Positions 45,454 to 58,349 of a DNA stretch of 64,000 nucleotides are shown piece after piece (position 1 is the stretch's first letter; each line of letters starts with the position of its first letter). This DNA is from Melampsora larici-populina 98AG31 (taxonomy: Eukaryota > Basidiomycota > Pucciniomycetes > Pucciniales > Melampsoraceae), in assembly GCF_000204055.1 (NCBI RefSeq), contig NW_006768780.1, forward strand, positions 408,286 to 472,285, read 5' to 3'. Position numbers and translations under genes: made by a program. The notes under the pieces were generated by a model that was not told where the DNA came from, made no database searches, and was given only the letters and a program-made list of their open reading frames with translations.

Positions 45454-47088
45454 ATGACCCCGCCGGTTTCGACTCGCAGCGATTCCACTGATCTCATGTC
45501 TTGGGTGGACGATCCAGAAACCTTAATCAGAAGATCGAATACACTACCCCCACAGTTCCAACACCGTTCCTTTGAAGAGTTGGGAAGATATACCCACGAT
45601 AAGGTTCTTGCGGCAAGCGTTCCGTCTAAACCGATCCCGGCGACAGCTAAACCATATAACCCAGCTGTACAGGCCTCGTCGTCACGTACTGCATCCTCCT
45701 TACCCGGAACCTTCCCCACTTCTCCTCTTTCACATCGTCGTTCTCCTTTATCGCTTCTACAACGAGAGGAAGAACACATCCACCGCGATTTAAACATCAG
45801 ATCTAAACGACCACCCTCACCTTCTTCATCCCTATTACCAAAAGTTGACGGGATGACGGGCCAAACGGATGATTCGCCTTTGAATCCAACTTCGACCAAC
45901 GATCTGCTACGTGCTATGCTATTGGCACAAGCAGCAGGCGTCAAAGCGGCTAATGAGGCAGCAGAACGCAATGCACGTTTGGAAGAAGAGCGGATCGTAG
46001 CTGCACATGAAGCGGCAAAGCGAATCGCTGGATTTGAGGAGAAACTACTCCAGATGCAGATGAACGCGTCGACGCAATCACCAGCTCCTACGACTCATGA
46101 AGGAGTTTCCCGAGGACTTGATCTTGCTAAATTCAAGTCATCGGATGGACTGCAATTCAAGGGTCCATACCGGGATGTAGAAGCGTTCCTGAAGTGGTTT
46201 ACCTCCCTGAAGATCTTTTTCATGGTCAAACAAGTCAATAAAGACGAGGACCAAATTATACTCACCGGCTTGTACTTACTGGAAACCAATCTCCAAGCGT
46301 TTTGGGCCCACAATATTGATAACTTCAGCAAGATATCGTGGGACAACTTTAAAGAAAAACTCTTTCGGGCAGCTCTACCTTCTGACTGGAACGACAAGAT
46401 CAGAGAAAAGATACTCACGTTACAAATGTCGAACAACGAGGACTTTTGTTTTTTCTGCACTCGCGCTCGATCCATCCAGTCTCTTATGAACCATGACCAG
46501 GTTGAGATCGATGATTTCACACTGGCCAGCCACATGTTGTTGGGAATGCTCCCGGAGTTGAAATCAACTCTTAGGTTAGATGGTCCTCTAAAGAAGGAAA
46601 ATTTTGACTTTATACGGTTTGAGGAACACTGTGACTTGATTTACGAAGACTTGATCGTGAAAAAGATCCTCAATCGACGAACCATTCCCACAACCGCCAC
46701 TAGAGCTTCACACGGTCAGCACGCGACTCAAACACCTATTCATCGAACCACCAATTCTGAATCTGAGGAGGAGCGTAAACAAGCGTTGTATTGGAAAATC
46801 AACTCGTATCTCGATTCACAAGGACTCTGCCACTTCTGCAAAAAGCAGTGCGGTAGCGAGTATAAACATTGTACCGGCACTTTCTCCAAAGAGCGGATCA
46901 CCTTCCCTCCCGGTTACACCCCTCCACCTAAGCCTGCGAACTATGTTCCGCCTCGAGCCCGTTTAGCAAACACTGCGGGACGTCCTACTCATGCACCTGC
47001 AGGACGACCTCCACGCTCCCAAGTGGCTGCTGTTAGCTTCCCAGAGTACAACTCAACCACTATTGTGGCATATGAAGAGATAGATTGA
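45454..47088 (+). CDS. Gag of outer Ty3/gypsy element
   Basis: 544 residues. Ser/Pro-rich N-terminal third, an Ala/Glu-rich coiled-coil stretch (LAQAAGVKAANEAAERNARLEEER in parts, about 150-200), then a retrotransposon capsid-like helical region (KFKSSDGLQFKGPYRDVEAF, WFTSLKIFFM, FKEKLFRAALPSDW, ASHMLLGMLPELKSTLR). A Cys/His patch CHFCKKQCGSEYKHC lies near residue 455; it is not a canonical CCHC knuckle. The frame ends EEID then TGA (47086-47088), and the frame beyond the TGA is open into pol, so expression of Gag-Pol would need readthrough or the TGA is a mutation. Confidence 0.85.
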   Translation: MTPPVSTRSDSTDLMSWVDDPETLIRRSNTLPPQFQHRSFEELGRYTHDKVLAASVPSKPIPATAKPYNPAVQASSSRTASSLPGTFPTSPLSHRRSPLSLLQREEEHIHRDLNIRSKRPPSPSSSLLPKVDGMTGQTDDSPLNPTSTNDLLRAMLLAQAAGVKAANEAAERNARLEEERIVAAHEAAKRIAGFEEKLLQMQMNASTQSPAPTTHEGVSRGLDLAKFKSSDGLQFKGPYRDVEAFLKWFTSLKIFFMVKQVNKDEDQIILTGLYLLETNLQAFWAHNIDNFSKISWDNFKEKLFRAALPSDWNDKIREKILTLQMSNNEDFCFFCTRARSIQSLMNHDQVEIDDFTLASHMLLGMLPELKSTLRLDGPLKKENFDFIRFEEHCDLIYEDLIVKKILNRRTIPTTATRASHGQHATQTPIHRTTNSESEEERKQALYWKINSYLDSQGLCHFCKKQCGSEYKHCTGTFSKERITFPPGYTPPPKPANYVPPRARLANTAGRPTHAPAGRPPRSQVAAVSFPEYNSTTIVAYEEID

Positions 47089-47190
47089 GAGCTTTGGGAG
47101 ATTGCCGAGAGCACTGAGGATACGTCGGAGCCCAAAGTTGAAGGGTACGTGGACCAGCCTATCTCGAAACCCACTGTCATCCTGCAACTG

Positions 47191-47194
47191 ACGT
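47191..47194. repeat. Target-site duplication ACGT (left copy) of the inner element
   Basis: ACGT lies immediately before the inner LTR TG end and again at 58350-58353 after the CA end. It falls in a Leu-Thr-Cys stretch upstream of the outer element's protease active site. Confidence 0.8.
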
Positions 47195-48823
47195 TGTAGA
47201 ACTTATAACCCAACAAGGGTTATACAGAGCTGGAAGAGGATAATCTACTAATAAAATGACTAGTAGAAGTTGTCTAAGGACTGCTCTTCTAAAACAACAC
47301 AATCAGAAAGAGCTCTGTTGTATTGAGTACTGATAAGGCACCAGAGAAATATAACTTCACATGTAATTTTAACTTCAAAAGCACACTTTGTATTACTATC
47401 AACACTGCTATAGTGTTATTCCCAATTGATAACTGAAAAAAAATAAGCAATATCTGATTGATATTATTCCCAATAAGTCTTTATGACTATAAAACTAAAG
47501 TAAATTTCTCTTTATAACTGTAATAAAGGGCGTATTTAAGTGAACAGGTACTATTAAAATAAGTTTATGATGATAAACAAAATAATAATGGCGTAAATGA
47601 TAAAGAAAAAAAAGGGGAACAACAGTCCCAAAACCCTCTCAAAGTATATATAACAATGTACTAGAACTTTTACAATGGTCAACAGCCTCAAAACCAATCA
47701 AATCCGCCCAAAATTCCCTAAAAACCCTATGATGACGCAATGTAATGGTTTTGTTACTAATAAATGATGTAATTTTCACAGCTAAAAGTGATCAATGACG
47801 CAATAATATGATGTACAGCACTTCTTATGATGAATACAGGTGATTTTTTCCTTGTAAACTAGCTGAAAACCAATTTTTGAGATTACGAATTTTTTCAGAT
47901 GTGCTCCAATTTTTGATTACTAAAGTGCATCTTGTAGCCCACGTGTTACTGATCATTTCTGACACCTACATGACCTACTTCTGATGAGTGATGAGTAAGA
48001 TATTGAGTTGTGAAGTTAAGGTTTTTAGTGTTACATATGACTTGTGACTGTAAATTCGAGATTCACACCAATTCTTTATTTGCCTTATAACTTTTTACAC
48101 ACACCTCCGTTACTCATGATTTAAAGTTTGTACATTATGTAATCCACTCTTCTGCGTTGAATGAGCCATCTACCAACCTATTCTGACGTCATTTGACATA
48201 TGTAATTAGCTGAAAACCTCCATTTTCCACGAATTTCACCCATTTTCTTCACTTTTCACAGCTACTACTATCTTTTTCTTGCTCATGTAATATGACATCA
48301 TCATCTATAGCCTTAAAAATCCCGGAAAATCCTCTTGGCAACCTTAAATTCCATCACTACCACTATTACACAACCAAACTACACGTGTACCTCTTGTTTA
48401 CCAACTTCGAAAAAGTGCTTTTTTCCTAATAACTTCTGTTTCTACTTATCAACCTTGAAGATTAAAATTGTCATAGTATCATATAATGTTGTTCTTTCAT
48501 ATTCTAACCTCATAATACCCATAACTCTAATATTACTACCCTAAAAACCATTTTCCAACCTTTATACCTATAATTTCGAATTATTCTTATGTTTTTCTTT
48601 CTTTCTTTTTGTAATAAATTTGTAAGTAAACTATAATGATCTTAATATATAATGTGAAATAAAATGATGTAATGTTGACCTAATGACCAATACATAAGCC
48701 TACAAGAGCTTCCATTGATCAAAAACCTCCATTTCGAATTTTCTTTCCTGCTGAATCCTGCTAATAAACTGGTAAACTGGTAATTGTGAATTTTTTAATT
48801 GATCCCATAAATTGATCACCACA
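47195..48823 (-). repeat. 3' LTR (in coding sense) of inner element
   Basis: 1629 bp; matches 56725-58349 with roughly six substitutions plus short indels in A-runs. A 69-codon open frame occurs in both copies on the plus strand (48335-48544) but has no support as a gene. Confidence 0.93.
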
Positions 48824-48838
48824 TCCTCCTCTTCTTCC
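48824..48838 (-). promoter_or_regulatory. Polypurine tract of inner element
   Basis: On the minus strand GGAAGAAGAGGAGGA abuts the TG end of the 3' LTR, the expected position of the plus-strand primer. Confidence 0.8.
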
Positions 48839-48920
48839 AAACTGCCCCCAGTTTATCAATTAAACAATTCAATTAAACACTCCAAATCACTAAATTCTCG
48901 AATTTTCCTTTATTTCCAAT

Positions 48921-49821
48921 ATGGTCAACACTGTTTCACCTTCTGTAGCTTCACCTTGTGTCCAATGCCGGATGGTAAACTCCTCCTGCCACTATCAAAT
49001 CAATCCTGCTTGCCAAAGATGCCATAGTCTAGGAATAATATGCTGTAAGTCCAATTTCTTTCTTCTATTTCTTTATAATAAGTTTCAATGTTTTTATTTA
49101 ATTCTTTTACTAATTTTTAATGTCTTTTCTTTATTTAATTTTAATAGCCTACCCCTCAGCGCCTTCATCCAATAATTCACCTGTACCTAATTCTCCTGCC
49201 AACAATTACCCTCCACCAAACACGCCTAATACTCCTATCAGAATAAATTTCCTTAACCCTTATAATATTAATTTAAATAACACGCCTTCAGCACCTGATT
49301 CCCCTAATCCCTCTATTACTTCATCAATTGAAACCAACTTTACTACATCTGATCCATTTTTTGAAAGATTATATGAACATAACCTGGCGTGGAAAACTGA
49401 TTATATAACTTATCAGAATTGGCATTCTTGGAGGATCCTGGATGATACAATCAGACAATTTAAAGAAGCAGGCTTTGAAGTTCCAAACATAATTAATAAT
49501 CATTATCATTTGTTGCGTGCACATTCTATAGCTGAGTATGTTTCAAGAAGGGGTGAAGATGAGTGTTTGACTGTAGCAACTTTTATTCCATTCCTTAATC
49601 ATGCTGAGCGTGCAAATGCTGCTATTTTATCCCCCTACAGTACTCCTTCTACCAATCCTCCTAATACTGAACCTCCTCTAATTAATTATGTTAATAATAG
49701 TCCTCCTGTAATTCCCGCTGTAAATTCTCCTTATACTGATTATAATTATTCTGAATATACTCCTACTATTTATGAACTTCCAAGCTGGCTTGATCCACGC
49801 CTTTTCCCTTCTTCTCCTTAA
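48921..49821 (+). CDS. Antisense spliced gene of the inner element: Zn2Cys6 zinc-cluster-like protein
   Basis: Two exons, 48921-49044 and 49148-49821, join in phase across a GTAAGT...AATAG intron; 265 residues. Exon 1 encodes CVQC, six residues, C, seven residues, C-QR-C, six residues, C: exactly the Cys-x2-Cys-x6-Cys-x7-Cys-x2-Cys-x6-Cys spacing of the fungal Zn2Cys6 binuclear cluster, a DNA-binding fold. Exon 2 begins with a Pro/Asn/Ser-rich linker, then a helical segment (DPFFERLYEHNLAWKTDY, WRILDDTIRQFKEAGF, HYHLLRAHSIAEYVSRRG, ATFIPFLNHAERANAA) and an acidic/aromatic tail. It lies opposite in strand to gag-pol, starting about 100 bp beyond the LTR, so the 3' LTR read backwards would be its promoter. 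Basic residues usually found between Cys 2 and 3 are few (one Arg), so DNA binding is unproven. Confidence 0.75.
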
Positions 49822-50031
49822 TTTTTTTTTTATATCTTTTAACTTGTACATTTTTAATCTTCTTTTAAAATTTTAATATAATTATTATACTGATAACTAG
49901 TGAAACATATCCTTATTTTTTTTTTTTTTAAATCTTATCTTATATTTTTATTCTGGTCTTTTAATTCTTTTAATCTTTTATATATATTTTTATCTTTTGA
50001 AATTAATAATATTATTAGTGGTAATTTATAC

Positions 50032-53000
50032 TTATAATTGCGCCTCTTCCTCTTCAATGCCCACCTCCTCTTCTTCTGCTAATATTGCCACACCCCTAGG
50101 ATAAAATCTTTTAACATGTTCAGCAGCATATTTTCGCGATAATTGAGTTCCATCTAACTCTTCTAGAATATAAGCACCTCCCATATGTTGTTCAACTACC
50201 TTATAAGGCCCATTCCATCTATTTTTAAATAATTTTCCCCATTGAAATTCTAAACTTTTGTTATAAGTTAATACCAAAGTTCCCTTCTCTAATGGATTTC
50301 TTAATCTATGCGCATTTTTCTTGTCCCAATATATAATTCCATCTACTCTTGCCTTCATCATCTTTTCATAAGCCTTCTTAATTAATTCTTCTCTTCCCAA
50401 TAATTGTTCCATTCTTGCTTTTAATAAATCTTCTCCAGTGTAAATAATATCCCAATCAATACCTAAAAATGTCCCAGCTTCCAAATCCACAGGTAAAATT
50501 GCTAGTTGATTAAATAACATCTCATAAGGAGATAATCCAGTGGTTCTTTTCGTGGAAATCCTGTCTGCAAATAATACTTGAGGTAGAAATGTTTCCCAAG
50601 AAGTCCCAGTCTCATCACTTAATTTTACCAAAGCTCCTTTAATATCCTTATGACCTCTTTCAACCATTCCTTCTGACTGTGGCCAATATGCCGTGGATTC
50701 CCCTAATTTTGATCCTGACATAGCAATTGCATCTCTAAATACCCCTTTAAATTCAGAACCTCCATCCACAGTAAAACATTTAACAGAACCATATCTCATT
50801 AACCATTCTTTCGTAATAAATTTGGCCACTGCAGGTGCTGTTAACTTCTTTAAAGGTGCAGCTTCTACCCATCCAGTTAAATCATCTCTAGCTATTATAG
50901 CATAATTATAATTACCCGCCTTAATATGAATTGCATCCAAGCTCACTCTTCCAAATAAAGTACTTTCACCAGTTGCCCTTTCCATTTCTTTTTCTTTCTT
51001 TGAACTTTTCTTCTGACATATTTCACACGTCAATACCCAATCTCTAACAAATTCCTTCATTTCAGGCCACCAGAATCTTACCAAACATCTTTTATAAGTC
51101 TCCTCAATTCCTCTATGTCCTAATTCCTCATGTAATTTCTCTAAAACAAACCTTTGTCCTTCTAAATTTGAAACAACCAATCTTCCATAAGGTACTCCTC
51201 TTTTCTTCAATCTTTCATTTTCCACGTAATAAGAAGGAGCTCTATTCTTAAGCCTTTGAAACTCATCATCCAAGCATCCTTCAGGTCTTTTTAAAGTTGT
51301 TAAATACTCTTGTAAATACTTCCAAACACCTTCTTGCGCCCAAATTGTTCCACTCTCTTCCTCCTCTTTTTCTGATGTTAAATCCTCATTCTGCAATTTA
51401 AAACTTTCATATACTTTAATATCTTTATCCTCCTCATTAAAACTCTCAGCTGAATCTGAATCACTTCCACGCATTCTTCTTGATAATCCATCTGGCATTC
51501 CAAAGCTTTTAGCATGTTTATGAACTAAATCAAATGAAAATAATTGAATGAAAGCTACCCATCTTGTCATAGCAGCATTAGGTAAACTTGGCGTGTTAAT
51601 CATCTGAATTAAAGCCTTTGCATCCACTTGTAATTCAAAATGTTGACCCCATAACTTTGTTCTGAACTTTTTAAGAATCTTTGCCACGCCACATAGCTCT
51701 AATTTGGGTTGAGAATACCTTGATTCCACCTCAGTAAATACTTCTGATTCATAGAATACTGGCCTGACTTCCCCATTTCCATCCGCTTGCATTAATACTC
51801 CTCCAGCTGCTATATGACTTGAATCCACGGCTAGAATAATTGGACTTGCTTCTTCATTATAATCCAAAGCTGATAATATTATATCTTCCCCAACAATCTT
51901 CTTCAATAAATTAAAAGCATCCTCACACTCTTGACTCCATATAAACTCCACTTTTAATCTTGTAAGCCTTCTTAAAGGTGCTGCCAAATGACCAAAATTA
52001 GGAATAAACATTCTTACATATATACACGTGCCCAAAAATCCTAATACTTGAGTTTTATTTGTTGGAGTTGGCCAACTTTGAATCTTATTCTTCTTTTTAA
52101 TTGATATACTCCTTCCTTTCTTGCTTACAATATGTCCAACAATTTCCAAAGCAGGTACACACACAGCAAACTTCTTTCCAGACACAGTAAGTCCTGCTTC
52201 TTCAATCCTGAACAACATTCTTTCTAAAACCACGGCATATTCCCAAATAAATTTTCTTATACCATTATTTTCTTTTAATACTTCATTATTATAATCTGAT
52301 TCAGGTCCTTTAATACCACCATCATCAATAAAAATTCCCACGTGTTGAGGAATTTCATCTTGCAATATCCACATCATCTGAGCTTGATATACAGCTACTG
52401 AATTAGTTGCTCCTTGAGGTAATCTAGTTAATTGTAATCTTCCCAAAGGGGTTTCAAAAGTTGTTAAAGGACGTGAAAATGCTGCTAATTCCCTTTCATC
52501 ATAACCTCCCATTATATCACCAAGTCCATAACAAGCTCTTCCAGCAAAGGATTCCACGAAATCTTCAGGAGCAGGTGGTACCCCAGAGTCCTTAATTGTT
52601 ACTCTATTTAATACTTGTAAATCATGTACTACCCTTAATTTTCCATCACCTTTAAGTACACAGAATACAGGACTAGTATAACTTGATGTGGATTGTTCAT
52701 AAAGACCTGTTCTTATTCTTTGTCTAACTAATTCAATGAAATCATTCCTTATTGCTACAGGTATAGGAATAGGTCTAATTTGCCAAGGCTCATGTTCCAC
52801 CACGGGTATTGCATAAGGTTGTCCATATGAATGCTTCAATAATCCTCTTTCTTCTTCACAATAAGCTATTGCTGCTTCCCTTAATACCAATATTAATAAG
52901 AATAATTTCCATTCCTCCTCACTTAACCATTCTGCAGGACCAAAGTTGCATTGCTTAAGCCTTTCCACCATGGTTTTCTCAGTTTCTTTGAAGACTGGAG

Positions 53001-56000
53001 GATTTTTAATTAAATGAGTAATATAAGGATCCCTTGATAAAGGTGGTCTTTGTAAAGGAAGATTTAAATACTGTGGCATTGGCGCATTTACAGGTTTAAC
53101 CTTCTTATCTACAGTCTTATATTTGGTACTATAACTCCTTAAATCCTTGAGTTCACGCCCTCTCCCAAATATTTCTTGATCTTCCAAGCACATAATTAAG
53201 CTTAATTCATTTATTAAATCATAATCCACACTTTCCTTCTCAAATTGCAACCCAAATACTTCTTCTTCATCATCTTCATCTTCAACTATATCATAATCAA
53301 TTCCTAAACATAAATCACGTGCTGCATAACCTTGCCTTTCTTCAATTTCTACATTTAATTCCCTTTCCCAATTTCCTTTATCAGGTTCACATAACCTCAC
53401 CTTCATCCATACTCCTCTATTATCTTTTAATGTCATCATTTCCCCTAAATCTTTCTTGAAATCCAATTGAACAGCATAATCAAATAAGAAAGATCTTCCC
53501 AATATTATTGGAGTTTGACTCTCCTCAGTTACGTAGAATTGAACCAAGCCTTCAATATTTCTACCAATTCTAACTTTCACTTTCTCAGCAATCCCACATA
53601 AAACAGTCTTCTGTCCGCCAATTCCTCCTACTGCTCCTTTAATATTAACCATAGTTTGAACAGGTAACAATTGCATAAACTTCTGAGGAATTATACTAAT
53701 TTGAGATCCTGAATCAACCAATGCTTTCAATTTAATTTTACCAATTGTAATAGTAACATATCCCAAAGGCGTGGAATATAAAGGAGACTGAGGTAAATTA
53801 ACTTCCAGAGATGAATTACTTTCAGAATCAAATTCAAAGTCAGATAAAGCTGTACTATTAACTGCTGAAGCCATTGTTTCTTGATTCATATTTAATCTTC
53901 TCTTTGAAACCCACTTCTTAACTTCTTCAGATACCACAGGAGAAATGGCGCATAATTCCTTAACTTGAATATCAATAACACTCTTCATTAATTTCTGAAC
54001 CACGTCTGTTACAACTCTTGGATTGTCTGCAAAGACTGGCCTTTCCAATTTATTCTTCTGTTCCCCGTGTCCTGGCATTATATAAGAAGGTCTAATTGTT
54101 TTATTTGAACCTTCCTTAATGTTTCTATTATCATCATCAGCATGAATTCTTCTTAAGCTTTCCTCCATTTCATTTATACCAGCTTCTTCAATATTATTTT
54201 CTATATCTAAATCCATACCATCATCAATATCCTCAGCTTCTTCATTAATAGTAACCTTCTTCTTCTTCTTAGGTTCAGCTTGAGTTACAGTCTTTCCACT
54301 ACGTGTATTTGCTGTAATATCATATATTTTAGTTCCACCTCCTCCCAATAATTCATTCCCATTACTTCTTAATATTTCAGGCATCCTCCAATTCCCTTCA
54401 AGAATACCACAACTTGTTTTAAGCTCTTGAATTTTATCTTTCCCGTCATTTTTAGTAATAATAGCTGTAGGAGTTACAGGTGGTACTACAGGTGTATTAA
54501 CATGTACAGCAGGAGTTGTTACACGCTGTTGTTGTATATTTTGACGTGTAGCATCATTGGCTTGCTGTTCAGAATATCTAATAACTTGCTGCCTGATTCC
54601 ATCTTCTCCTTGCTTAAACATCCTTACATTTCCTGAAGGTAAGAAGAAACCATCCATCCTATCTTGCAATAATCCAGCTTGCTTATCTTGAATTACCCAT
54701 CTACATCTTCCTACAGTATGTCCTTCAGTATTACAATACACGCAAAAGACAGTACTTCCTTGATTTCCATTTGGAGGTGGTGGAGGTTGATAAGTATTTT
54801 GATTATTTGTATTTGGATTTTGAGGATTATAAGGTCTATTAACATTATTATTATTATAAGGCCTGCTGTAATTGGGCTGTTGTCCTTTATAATTCTGAGC
54901 TGGAAAATTACGCGGCTGATTATTAAAATTGTTATTATTATTATAAGGTTGATTAACTCTTTGATAATTTGACGGATTTTGTTGATGTTGAGCTCTAAAA
55001 GGTTCAGCTTGTTGATGGATTTGAGTTTGTAAAGAATTTGAAACAGGAAGATAAGGATGCAATGCATTTACAGGTGGTAATAATAATGGAGCCTGCACGT
55101 GATTTATATGTAAATTTCCCAAGTCACTACATAAAACCTCCATTTGCTGCGTGGCTTTTGCTTGCATTCCTCCTATTTTAGCAACTTTATTACTAGTATC
55201 CTTTTGAATTACTTCACTTCTAACACCAACAATTTCATTCTTAATTGCAAACTTCTCTTCTCCAATATCCTCAAAGATTAATAAAGCTTCTTCTTCAATA
55301 TAATGATCCACAACCTTCTTTAATTTATTTAAATTAGGTAACCTATATCTTCCACTATCCACCTTCTTCATTAACTTCTTTCTAATCATTCTTTTCTTGA
55401 ATTTCTTTTGAAGTTCATCAGAGAAAGCATCATAGAAATGGCGTGCAACTTCTTCATCATTTGAATCAATATAATCATGTCTTGTTAAATATTGATGAAT
55501 TTTGTCGAAATTAATTCTAAATGTTTGATATTCAGCTTTATTTGTAACACCACCAGTCCTAGCAGTTCTTTCTGACAAAGTTCTTAAATGATCAATTGAA
55601 TATCTTGGTTGCTCCGTGGTAGTTTGATACCTTTCAATTAATTGTTCCTTAACTTTCTTCCAACTCCATTCACCAGTACCCCAACCATCCATTTCACGTA
55701 TTTCCTCCTTCAATTCTTCTCCAACAACAAAGCTAGTAACTTGTCTAACCATATCAAGTTCTGAGGCGCCATTTGCTTCAGCTTGACTATGATAATTAAT
55801 GATAAACTTCTTAACATTCCTTCCAACTTCAAATCTAATACTTGAATCAGTATTATCAATTCTACGTGGTTTAATATGACTTCTAGCCTCCTCATTCCTT
55901 TCTTCACTACTAACATCTCCATTACTAGTTGAATCATCATCTGAAGAACTTGAAGAACTTGAATAATCTCCTCCATCATCTTCTTTAATAATTTTCTTAA

Positions 56001-56472
56001 TAACCTTCTTGCCTTTACTCTTTTTCACGACTTTTACCACTTCTTTTTCCTTCTCCTTCTTCTCTCTTTCTTCCTTAATTCTATTATTAGTAATAATGTC
56101 TGCCACTTCTTTTTCTCTTTGTAAATAATATTGTTGTTGATTATAGAATTGTTGTTGCCAATCCACGTCTTCCTCATGATCAGAGGGTAATAATGGTTCC
56201 TGTTCCCTGAATCCAGTAAAGGCTGAAGGTGGAATTGGATCCTCAGAAGCAGGTGGTTCTTCACGTTGTTTTCCATGAATAGTTGATCCAGAGGAAGGTC
56301 CTGGAGGTGGTGGTGGTGGTAATATGTTAATAGAAGTAGAAACATCTGGAACATAAACTCTGCTTCCAGAAATTCGTGGAGTTCTTTTATAATGAGATGT
56401 TGGTGGTAATTCTAATTCCTCATCTCCATCATCCGCCACATCTTGATTATGCATTTGAATAACTGAAGACAT
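50032..56472 (-). CDS. Gag-Pol polyprotein of inner Ty3/gypsy element (single intact frame)
   Basis: 2146 residues in one frame. Order: acidic/low-complexity N-terminus, capsid-like helices (about 200-420), Asn/Pro/Gln-rich stretch, one zinc knuckle CVYCNTEGHTVGRC (about 575), aspartic protease ALVDSGSQISII (about 920), reverse transcriptase with LRVVHDLQVLNRV and the catalytic FIDDGG (about 1378; the usual first residue Tyr is Phe), RNase H-like VDSSHIAAGG (about 1545), integrase HEELGHRG...CEICQKK (about 1781-1815) and catalytic Asp/Asp/Glu at SLDAIHI, FTVDGGSEF and GMVERGHKD (about 1842-1935), then GPYKVVEQHMGGAYIL near the end. No stop or frameshift, so it could be active. No separate gag stop is seen, so Gag and Pol would be made as one chain. 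Confidence 0.93.
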   Translation of the reverse strand: MSSVIQMHNQDVADDGDEELELPPTSHYKRTPRISGSRVYVPDVSTSINILPPPPPPGPSSGSTIHGKQREEPPASEDPIPPSAFTGFREQEPLLPSDHEEDVDWQQQFYNQQQYYLQREKEVADIITNNRIKEEREKKEKEKEVVKVVKKSKGKKVIKKIIKEDDGGDYSSSSSSSDDDSTSNGDVSSEERNEEARSHIKPRRIDNTDSSIRFEVGRNVKKFIINYHSQAEANGASELDMVRQVTSFVVGEELKEEIREMDGWGTGEWSWKKVKEQLIERYQTTTEQPRYSIDHLRTLSERTARTGGVTNKAEYQTFRINFDKIHQYLTRHDYIDSNDEEVARHFYDAFSDELQKKFKKRMIRKKLMKKVDSGRYRLPNLNKLKKVVDHYIEEEALLIFEDIGEEKFAIKNEIVGVRSEVIQKDTSNKVAKIGGMQAKATQQMEVLCSDLGNLHINHVQAPLLLPPVNALHPYLPVSNSLQTQIHQQAEPFRAQHQQNPSNYQRVNQPYNNNNNFNNQPRNFPAQNYKGQQPNYSRPYNNNNVNRPYNPQNPNTNNQNTYQPPPPPNGNQGSTVFCVYCNTEGHTVGRCRWVIQDKQAGLLQDRMDGFFLPSGNVRMFKQGEDGIRQQVIRYSEQQANDATRQNIQQQRVTTPAVHVNTPVVPPVTPTAIITKNDGKDKIQELKTSCGILEGNWRMPEILRSNGNELLGGGGTKIYDITANTRSGKTVTQAEPKKKKKVTINEEAEDIDDGMDLDIENNIEEAGINEMEESLRRIHADDDNRNIKEGSNKTIRPSYIMPGHGEQKNKLERPVFADNPRVVTDVVQKLMKSVIDIQVKELCAISPVVSEEVKKWVSKRRLNMNQETMASAVNSTALSDFEFDSESNSSLEVNLPQSPLYSTPLGYVTITIGKIKLKALVDSGSQISIIPQKFMQLLPVQTMVNIKGAVGGIGGQKTVLCGIAEKVKVRIGRNIEGLVQFYVTEESQTPIILGRSFLFDYAVQLDFKKDLGEMMTLKDNRGVWMKVRLCEPDKGNWERELNVEIEERQGYAARDLCLGIDYDIVEDEDDEEEVFGLQFEKESVDYDLINELSLIMCLEDQEIFGRGRELKDLRSYSTKYKTVDKKVKPVNAPMPQYLNLPLQRPPLSRDPYITHLIKNPPVFKETEKTMVERLKQCNFGPAEWLSEEEWKLFLLILVLREAAIAYCEEERGLLKHSYGQPYAIPVVEHEPWQIRPIPIPVAIRNDFIELVRQRIRTGLYEQSTSSYTSPVFCVLKGDGKLRVVHDLQVLNRVTIKDSGVPPAPEDFVESFAGRACYGLGDIMGGYDERELAAFSRPLTTFETPLGRLQLTRLPQGATNSVAVYQAQMMWILQDEIPQHVGIFIDDGGIKGPESDYNNEVLKENNGIRKFIWEYAVVLERMLFRIEEAGLTVSGKKFAVCVPALEIVGHIVSKKGRSISIKKKNKIQSWPTPTNKTQVLGFLGTCIYVRMFIPNFGHLAAPLRRLTRLKVEFIWSQECEDAFNLLKKIVGEDIILSALDYNEEASPIILAVDSSHIAAGGVLMQADGNGEVRPVFYESEVFTEVESRYSQPKLELCGVAKILKKFRTKLWGQHFELQVDAKALIQMINTPSLPNAAMTRWVAFIQLFSFDLVHKHAKSFGMPDGLSRRMRGSDSDSAESFNEEDKDIKVYESFKLQNEDLTSEKEEEESGTIWAQEGVWKYLQEYLTTLKRPEGCLDDEFQRLKNRAPSYYVENERLKKRGVPYGRLVVSNLEGQRFVLEKLHEELGHRGIEETYKRCLVRFWWPEMKEFVRDWVLTCEICQKKSSKKEKEMERATGESTLFGRVSLDAIHIKAGNYNYAIIARDDLTGWVEAAPLKKLTAPAVAKFITKEWLMRYGSVKCFTVDGGSEFKGVFRDAIAMSGSKLGESTAYWPQSEGMVERGHKDIKGALVKLSDETGTSWETFLPQVLFADRISTKRTTGLSPYEMLFNQLAILPVDLEAGTFLGIDWDIIYTGEDLLKARMEQLLGREELIKKAYEKMMKARVDGIIYWDKKNAHRLRNPLEKGTLVLTYNKSLEFQWGKLFKNRWNGPYKVVEQHMGGAYILEELDGTQLSRKYAAEHVKRFYPRGVAILAEEEEVGIEEEEAQL

Positions 56473-56724
56473 AGCTTCTTTATATAATAAATTCTTTAAA
56501 TAAGAACTAATTTTGATATATTTTTAAATGAGAATGAAAGATAATGTTTATGATTGATTTGAATAATTTTAATTTTAAAGATCTTCTGTTGATAACCACG
56601 TGAATAATTTTTATTGAATCTTGATGTAATATAATATAATTTGCTTGTTGATAATGATTAAAAGAGAAATTGATTTAATTATAAGTTGATTTTAATTTGT
56701 CAAGCCCGGGCAGAGTCACCAATA
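56473..56724 (-). other. Leader and primer-binding-site candidate of inner element
   Basis: On the minus strand, three bases after the LTR, TGGTGACTCTGCCCGGGC (56704-56721) starts with the TGG expected of a tRNA primer site. The tRNA is not identified. The remaining 230 bp is AT-rich leader. Confidence 0.6.
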
Positions 56725-58349
56725 TGTAGAACTTATAACCCAACAAGGGTTATACAGAGCTGGAAGAGGATAATCTACTAATAAAATGACTAGTAGAAGT
56801 TGTCTAAGGACTGCTCTTCTAAAACAACACAATCAGAAAGAGCTCTGTTGTATTGAGTACTGATAAGGCACCAGAGAAATATAACTTCACACGTAATTTA
56901 ACTTCAAAAGCACACTTTGTATTACTATCAACACTGCTATAGTGTTATTCCCAATTGATAACTAAAGAAATAAGCAATATCTGATTGATATTATTCCCAA
57001 TAAGTCTTTATGACTATAAAACTAAAGTAAATTTCTCTTTATAGCTGTAATAAAGGGTGTATTTAAGTGAACAGGTACTATTAAAATAAGTTTATGATGA
57101 TAAACAAAATAATAATGGCGTAAATGATAAAGAAAAAAAGGGGAACAACAGTCCCAAAACCCTCTCAAAGTATATATAACAATGTACTAGAACTTTTACA
57201 ATGGTCAACAGCCTCAAAACCAATCAAATCCGCCCAAAATTCCCTAAAAACCCTATGATGACGCAATGTAATGGTTTTGTTACTAATAAATGATGTAATT
57301 TTCACAGCTAAAAGTGATCAATGACGCAATAATATGATGTACAGCACTTCTTATGATGAATACAGGTGATTTTTTCCTTGTAAACTAGCTGAAAACCAAT
57401 TTTTGAGATTACGAATTTTTTCAGATGTGCTCCAATTTTTGATTACTAAAGTGCATCTTGTAGCCCACGTGTTACTGATCATTTCTGACACCTACATGAC
57501 CTACTTCTGATGAGTGATGAGTAAGATATTGAGTTGTGAAGTTAAGGTTTTTAGTGTTACATATGACTTGTGACTGTAAATTCGAGATTCACACCAATTC
57601 TTTATTTGCCTTATAACTTTTTACACACACCTCCGTTACTCATGATTTAAAGTTTGTACATTATGTAATCCACTCTTCTGCGTTGAATGAGCCATCTACC
57701 AACCTATTCTGACGTCATTTGACATATGTAATTAGCTGAAAACCTCCATTTTCCACGAATTTCACCCATTTTCTTCACTTTTCACAGCTACTACTATCTT
57801 TTTCTTGCTCATGTAATATGACATCATCATCTATAGCCTTAAAAATCCCGGAAAATCCTCTTGGCAACCTTAAATTCCATCACTACCACTATTACACAAC
57901 CAAACTACACGTGTACCTCTTGTTTACCAACTTCGAAAAAGTGCTTTTTTCCTAATAACTTCTGTTTCTACTTATCAACCTTGAAGATTAAAATTGTCAT
58001 AGTATCATATAATGTTGTTCTTTCATATTCTAACCTCATAATACCCATAACTCTAATATTACTACCCTAAAAACCATTTTCCAACCTTTATACCTATAAT
58101 TTCGAATTATTCTTATGTTTTTCTTTCTTTCTTTTTGTAATAAATTTGTAAGTAAACTATAATGATCTTAATATATAATGTCAAATAAAATGATGTAATG
58201 TTGACCTAATGACCAATACATAAGCCTACAAGAGCTTCAATTGATCAAAAACCTCCATTTCGAATTTTCTTTCCTGCTGAATCCTGCTAATAAACTGGTA
58301 AACTGGTAATTGTGAATTTTTTAATTGATCCCATAAATTGATCACCACA
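56725..58349 (-). repeat. 5' LTR (in coding sense) of inner element
   Basis: 1625 bp copy of 47195-48823. Differences include ACG/ATG and GCG/GTG, which are CpG transitions, plus A-run length changes. Confidence 0.93.

Follow-up and report, generated by a model that had tools for sequence, protein, structure and literature searches.

Does the reverse strand of a retrotransposon in the rust fungus Melampsora larici-populina carry a gene of its own? In the window analyzed here, a stretch of 64,000 nucleotides from strain 98AG31 (contig NW_006768780.1, positions 408,286 to 472,285), a Ty3/gypsy element bounded by long terminal repeats (LTRs) lies on the minus strand. A preliminary description of the window had proposed that the plus strand, between pol and the polypurine tract next to the 3' LTR, encodes a spliced protein of 265 residues, whose first exon has the six-cysteine spacing of fungal binuclear-cluster proteins. 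Both proposals were upheld by the analysis. Judged from the sequence, the locus is a real and old antisense accessory gene and no chance open reading frame (ORF). The parts of the gene are as follows:

48921 to 49044, plus strand: exon 1, with the ATG at 48921
48957 to 49043, plus strand: Zn2Cys6 cluster, CX2CX6CX7CX2CX6C, scoring 21.7 bits with PF00172 against a cut-off of 21
49045 to 49147, plus strand: intron of 103 nt, GTAAGT..TAG, phase 1, starting one base past the codon of the sixth cysteine
49148 to 49821, plus strand: exon 2, consisting of a Pro/Asn/Ser-rich linker, a conserved domain and a tail, with the stop codon at 49819-49821

The ATG was found 97 bp from the 3' LTR, close to the distance of about 100 bp given before, and no ATG starts within 48684-48920. 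The gene and pol face each other tail to tail, with 210 bp between the end of the gene and the pol stop, and across the gene the longest open frame on the element-sense (minus) strand has at most 57 codons. The conserved domain of exon 2 covers about residues 94-198 and is probably helical according to structure modeling. The intron, described earlier by its GTAAGT and AG signals, keeps the phase, and splicing is supported at the sequence level by the conservation of the intron and by two public gene models. MELLADRAFT_86121 (P0001) is 88% identical to the window protein, and MELLADRAFT_96288 (P0005) is identical letter for letter to the spliced reading of a diverged copy, L036. Together with MELLADRAFT_94768 (P0006), these are M. 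larici-populina models of the same protein families. All three are labeled uncharacterized, P0001 and P0006 also Zn(2)-C6, and the visible (truncated) names contain no mention of a retrotransposon antisense gene.

A genome search with the antisense gene gave 38 matches, all within 34 loci (L001-L034), and a protein search added four loci, two of which (L037 and L038) were left out of the analysis. The window copy (W) and L001-L027 were translated, representing 27 distinct places since W and L002 are the same place; L028-L034 were left out as split, short or more diverged. The 27 places carry 24 different sequences. GT..AG was present in all 27, the six cysteines in 24 and a full open frame in 22, which agrees with the earlier expectation that other copies keep frame and cysteines. 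L013 and L015 kept the frame and lost one cysteine, L009 has a stop, the reading frame of L018 and L020 is shifted, and the copies at L021 and L027 are truncated. Intron length varied between 102 and 122 nt, and the changes in exon length were multiples of three except in L018, L020, L021, and L027. Moreover, exon 2 was matched in 35 of the 36 loci L001-L036, and pol adjoined it on the opposite strand in 32 of these 35. No pol was present within the fetched stretch at the other three (L021, at a contig end, L027, and L033). The same association was seen from the side of reverse transcriptase (RT). Among the matches listed, 24 RT copies showed at least 86% identity over at least 230 of 245 residues, and for 21 of these the gene was matched no more than 5 kb away, every time on the opposite strand (21/21).

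The ratio of nonsynonymous to synonymous substitution (dN/dS) was calculated with a Nei-Gojobori script, with bootstrapping for two subfamily pairs. The dN/dS of W and L022 was 0.092 (bootstrap 0.056-0.143) at a dS of 0.72, and their differences were distributed over the three codon positions as 22/19/80. For W and L019 the value was 0.045 (bootstrap 0.008-0.107), and exon 1 alone gave 0.074 between W and L022. The pairs of eight representatives ranged from 0.045 to 0.23, with one pair showing no differences. Four of the other five reading frames gave 1.3-4.0, and the remaining one, a reverse frame that is closed and has the third codon position in common with the gene frame, gave 0.13-0.27. 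For comparison, the gag-pol regions of W and L023 gave 0.098 for RT, 0.124 for integrase, 0.195 for gag, and 0.346 for the gag-protease interval. The antisense gene is under strong purifying selection, with a dN/dS of about 0.09 and not near 1, the value that by the preliminary description would have spoken against the gene, and its protein is constrained about as strongly as the RT of the element.

The usual spacing of Zn2Cys6 proteins is CX2CX6CX5-12CX2CX6-8C, and the window protein fits it. The pattern had one match in the six frames of the 64-kb window and none in 100 block-shuffled windows (0/100). When the exon 1 sequences were aligned (13 of 16 distinct sequences), the six cysteines and one proline were the invariant residues, the invariance of the cysteines being partly by construction as the sequences had been selected on the cysteine pattern. 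A PDB search with a profile of six relatives returned six matches, the first five of which were PPR1, LAC9, and three GAL4 chains, all weak (E 0.034 to 1). A search with the single sequence placed PPR1 on top at E 0.29, followed by peripherin and retinoic acid receptors. The window protein thus shares with the fungal factors GAL4, PPR1, and LAC9 the six-cysteine pattern and a PF00172 score above the cut-off. It differs from them in the loop between the second and third cysteines (C2-C3), which is not basic in the Melampsora antisense proteins checked; in diverged members the C3-C4 spacing is 14-20 residues, also beyond the usual range. No further transcription-factor domain was found by Pfam in five antisense proteins.

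The element around the gene has the following parts:

47195 to 48823, minus strand: 3' LTR, 1629 bp, a direct repeat with 56725-58349, in which antisense transcription would be expected to start
47695 to 48594, strand not assigned: conserved U3 block
48824 to 48838, minus strand: polypurine tract adjoining the 3' LTR, reading TCCTCCTCTTCTTCC on the plus strand, as read from the sequence
50032 to 56472, minus strand: gag-pol, a single ORF of 2146 amino acids with protease, RT, RNase H, and integrase zinc domain
56704 to 56721, minus strand: candidate primer-binding site, reading TGG... on the minus strand and separated from the 5' LTR by 3 bp, proposed from its sequence
56725 to 58349, minus strand: 5' LTR, 1625 bp, a direct repeat with 47195-48823

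The pair of LTRs, the polypurine tract and the order protease, RT, RNase H, integrase, which is of the Ty3 type in a Pfam scan, place the element in Ty3/gypsy. The Pfam hits of gag-pol included the integrase zinc domain and no integrase core family. The two LTRs differ by 6 substitutions in 1626 aligned sites, and the 4-bp sequence ACGT stands on both flanks. The element is apparently nested in a second gypsy-like element on the plus strand, with a gag-like ORF on the left (45454-47088) and pol-like sequence on the right (58350 onward), as read by eye. No Rfam match was found in 47000-50100 at E up to 0.5. In a sliding comparison of W and L023, the U3 block of 900 bp aligned without gap columns, at 85-98% identity in each 100-bp step, and it is thus conserved between subfamilies whose synonymous sites differ at a dS of about 0.7. 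In L031, L032, and L035, the longest match to the LTR likewise falls on the core of this block. The block resembles a conserved cis target, and exchange between families could explain it too. A genome search with the U3 core gave 678 first-look candidates, compared with 38 gene matches, and the 40 that were scored were all 99-100% identical. If most of these candidates are real, the LTR has spread recently, mostly as LTRs without the gene.

The gene was also followed into more distant copies. Exon 2 showed 52% amino acid identity in L031 and L035, 44-56% in L032 (in two pieces, with the frame broken), and 34% in L036. In all four, exon 1 reads CX2CX6CX14CX2CX6C and the intron has the same position and phase, and L031, L035, and L036 have open frames with the six cysteines and the intron. 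Pyrimidine runs resembling the complement of a polypurine tract also occur upstream of the gene in the four loci. Beyond these A-type loci, near-full-length RT matches at 72-80% identity formed the next group among the matches listed, after which identity dropped to about 33%. This group includes family B (C71, C72, C14, C100, and C130) and family C (C5, C4, and C2). In C71, C72 (partly), C14, and C100, an exon 1 with the zinc cluster could be read, with an intron after the sixth cysteine and an exon 2 that starts with [DE]WP; in C130, none was found in the stretch of approximately 330 bp that remains up to the contig end. Most B proteins have a basic tail of the KGKKR type. Genome matches of P0006 placed exon 2 at 18 sites; exon 1 was matched by similarity at 13 of them and additionally by pattern at C100, the cysteines being checked singly in C71, C72, C14, and C100. 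An RT match lay within 10 kb at 11 of the 18 sites, on the opposite strand in all 11, and the other seven had none that near among the matches listed. In C72, two same-strand matches to sequence upstream of C14 stand 13 kb apart and flank the RT, as an LTR pair would. Five of the eight proteins retrieved with the B profile have the six cysteines (P0006, P0008, P0010, P0011, and P0012); P0008 and P0011 are proteins listed for M. americana.

A profile comparison revealed no relation between exon 2 of lineage A and that of lineage B, and when the whole proteins were compared, only the cysteine region aligned, weakly. Families B and C are weakly related (profile comparison, probability 68, E 4.7e-5). 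The antisense ORF of family C (L043/L052, L044/L053, and L046/L054) is basic in its N-terminal part and includes a domain with a weak relation to exon 2 of family B.

Antisense ORFs between pol and the 3' LTR are described as established in plant Ty3/gypsy elements, and as conserved in most copies like other proteins of the element, in the literature on the aORF-3R group (Grande GENE23, RIRE2, Retand TRP28, and PvRetro13 ORF2; PMC7264820, PMC11963269). According to the same sources, the GENE23 protein of Grande is nuclear, TRP28 of Retand is a predicted DNA binder, and what antisense genes do in Ty3/gypsy elements is still an open question. Antisense transcription of its own has been shown for Grande, and the plant proteins are said there to have no clear similarity to others, apart from SMC and transposase-28 domains (PMC7264820). 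The Melampsora gene occupies the same site antisense to gag-pol, and its copies are conserved with coding constraint; it differs from the plant genes in its rust host, its Zn2Cys6-type module and its conserved intron. In fungi, brtn of the Boty element of Botrytis cinerea is likewise an additional antisense gene in a Ty3/gypsy element, and the passages on it mention neither a zinc cluster nor an intron; it is set beside the Melampsora gene by description only (PMC7264820, PMC8365987, PMC5987419). The preliminary description, which knew of no antisense zinc-cluster gene in a fungal LTR element, needs a correction here: for an antisense gene as such, fungal LTR elements offer a precedent (PMC7264820, PMC8365987), although the brtn passages say nothing of a zinc cluster. 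Among the open-licence papers listed, judged largely from titles and the starts of abstracts, none was seen to describe an antisense gene with a zinc cluster or an intron in an LTR element of a fungus, and the words “antisense” and “zinc” are absent from the main text of a survey of rust transposable elements (PMC12210899). The new parts relative to known antisense LTR genes are the zinc cluster and the retained intron. Among retroviruses, HBZ of HTLV-1 is a nuclear protein encoded antisense in a retroelement (PMC11963269), and an antisense promoter is described in the HTLV 3' LTR (PMC7264820). The likeness to HBZ is one of layout, no relation in sequence is claimed, and the promoter and the nuclear action of the Melampsora protein are putative. 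HBZ itself is a basic leucine zipper (bZIP) protein and has a spliced form.

The intron would survive retrotransposition because the genomic RNA that is reverse-transcribed is the opposite strand, which lacks these splice sites. The same strand logic is used in retrotransposition reporter genes with an antisense intron. The retained intron thus marks the protein as the likely product of a separate antisense mRNA, most simply begun in or next to the 3' LTR. We infer that transcription of the gene starts at a promoter within or next to the 3' LTR and runs toward pol, and that the host splices the transcript. The protein, of approximately 29 kDa as estimated from its length, would serve the element as a nuclear accessory factor, as suggested by analogy with the Grande and Retand proteins. 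Its zinc cluster would most likely contact DNA, chromatin or the transcription machinery and regulate the expression of the element itself. The two roles named in the preliminary description, self-regulation and manipulation of host genes, are both putative. With moderate confidence we conclude that this Melampsora Ty3/gypsy lineage carries a standing antisense accessory gene for such a nuclear factor. More tentatively, and as a possibility on the unlikely side, the protein may be the element's own zinc-cluster transcription regulator, produced from the 3' LTR and feeding back on the conserved U3 block, in a retroviral-style circuit older than the split of A and B in which the DNA- or chromatin-contacting exon was kept and the effector exon was swapped. 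Since the domain is short, bounded and of recognizable type, the copies are many, the constraint is strong and a candidate cis target is at hand in the U3 block, a regulatory role is directly testable.

Several observations weigh against a zinc-cluster factor of this kind. The Pfam margin of the window match is thin (0.7 bit), L031 and P0005 remained under the PF00172 cut-off with 11.8 bits, and no Zn_clus match was found by Pfam in the two B-lineage proteins scanned. The model of exon 1, built without zinc, was poor (pLDDT 62.7) and the Foldseek step yielded no chain for comparison, while the helices in the model of P0001 were of low confidence (whole-protein pLDDT 41, the model being left unused). 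The RT copies C83 and C176 had no gene match among the matches listed, and the match of C84 lay at a distance of 9 kb. The third cysteine is lost in C14, three of the eight B-type public models lack an in-frame zinc exon, and no zinc cluster was found in the three family C copies read (C5, C4, and C2), which have an antisense ORF. The pair L022 and L024 was less constrained (dN/dS 0.23), and exon 1 of W and L016 showed two replacements and no silent change. No nuclear-import signal was noticed in the window protein, for which no formal test was made, and the gene is known here solely from DNA sequence and public gene models. The C2-C3 loop is basic in Gal4-type factors and contacts CGG. In the seven sequences checked it has at most one K/R, with one to three acidic residues in five of them, and the LTR contains 4 CGG plus CCG compared with 12.2 in mononucleotide shuffles. 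Gal4-style DNA binding by the antisense protein is therefore doubtful, and Gal4-style regulation through CGG sites was set low for the same loop and the CGG-poor LTR. Compared with the fungal DNA-binding clusters named in the preliminary description, the window protein has the cysteine spacing and a Pfam score above the cut-off, and it lacks the basic loop of the Gal4 type.

These features lend some weight to another explanation, in which the protein is an element-encoded cofactor that works by binding to other proteins, such as Gag, integrase or a chromatin protein, in nuclear entry or the choice of integration site, and the cysteines form a structural zinc module without base-specific DNA binding. 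The loop without Gal4-type basic residues, its acidic residues in five of seven sequences and the CGG-poor LTR all fit such a cofactor. Exon 2 differs between A and B with no profile match while exon 1 and pol persist, as would be the case for a modular adaptor. The conserved U3 block fits a cis target equally well, and we regard the cofactor as rather unlikely, if a serious competitor of the nuclear regulatory factor favored above.

The remaining explanations fare worse. Zn2Cys6 genes are a class of fungal host genes, and the element could have picked up one of them from the host and now carry it along as a passenger. The gene, however, adjoins pol in 32 of 35 A-type loci, and a PF00172 genome search returned five loci at E up to 0.001, none of which was among the antisense-gene matches listed; this search missed element copies too and is no full census of Zn2Cys6 genes. 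No syntenic homolog outside elements was seen in the M. larici-populina genome. The gene is also common to deeply diverged element families with its intron kept, which speaks against a recent acquisition and against an origin from its own mRNA, and passenger status appears improbable. It could also be the antisense RNA that matters, for instance as double-stranded RNA with the genomic RNA, the protein being incidental. Such a role has been proposed for LTR elements (PMC7264820), and the tail-to-tail end 210 bp from the pol stop would suit it. This view is largely refuted by the coding constraint, with a dN/dS of 0.05-0.09 in the gene frame, compared with values of 1.3-4.0 for four of the remaining five, and exon lengths that shift by threes (bar L018, L020, L021, and L027) next to an intron free to vary over 102-122 nt; it is accordingly rated very improbable. 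Chance alone can give rise to an open frame on the strand opposite a coding sequence, and the locus could be such a frame with a chance cysteine pattern. This account is refuted by conservation, as copies keep the frame and cysteines at a low dN/dS; moreover, no sense frame is open beneath the gene and the pattern was absent from all 100 shuffles, so that its probability is negligible.

The public models bear on annotation. P0007 and P0009 seemingly read the zinc-cluster exon in another frame, which gives a hydrophobic start and a name beginning with “Secreted pr”, and P0007 fits the C71 element by identity. Misread retrotransposon antisense genes may thus be present among the predicted secreted proteins of rusts, and some Melampsora models named Zn(2)-C6, or even “secreted”, are probably retrotransposon antisense genes. 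No relatives of the antisense protein were found in the viral contigs or GTDB contigs searched. A 46%-identical relative, P0003, is named Rickettsiales bacterium MAG and lies on a contig of 2277 bp; since it starts in the apparent intron before exon 2, it is probably fungal contamination in a bacterial bin.
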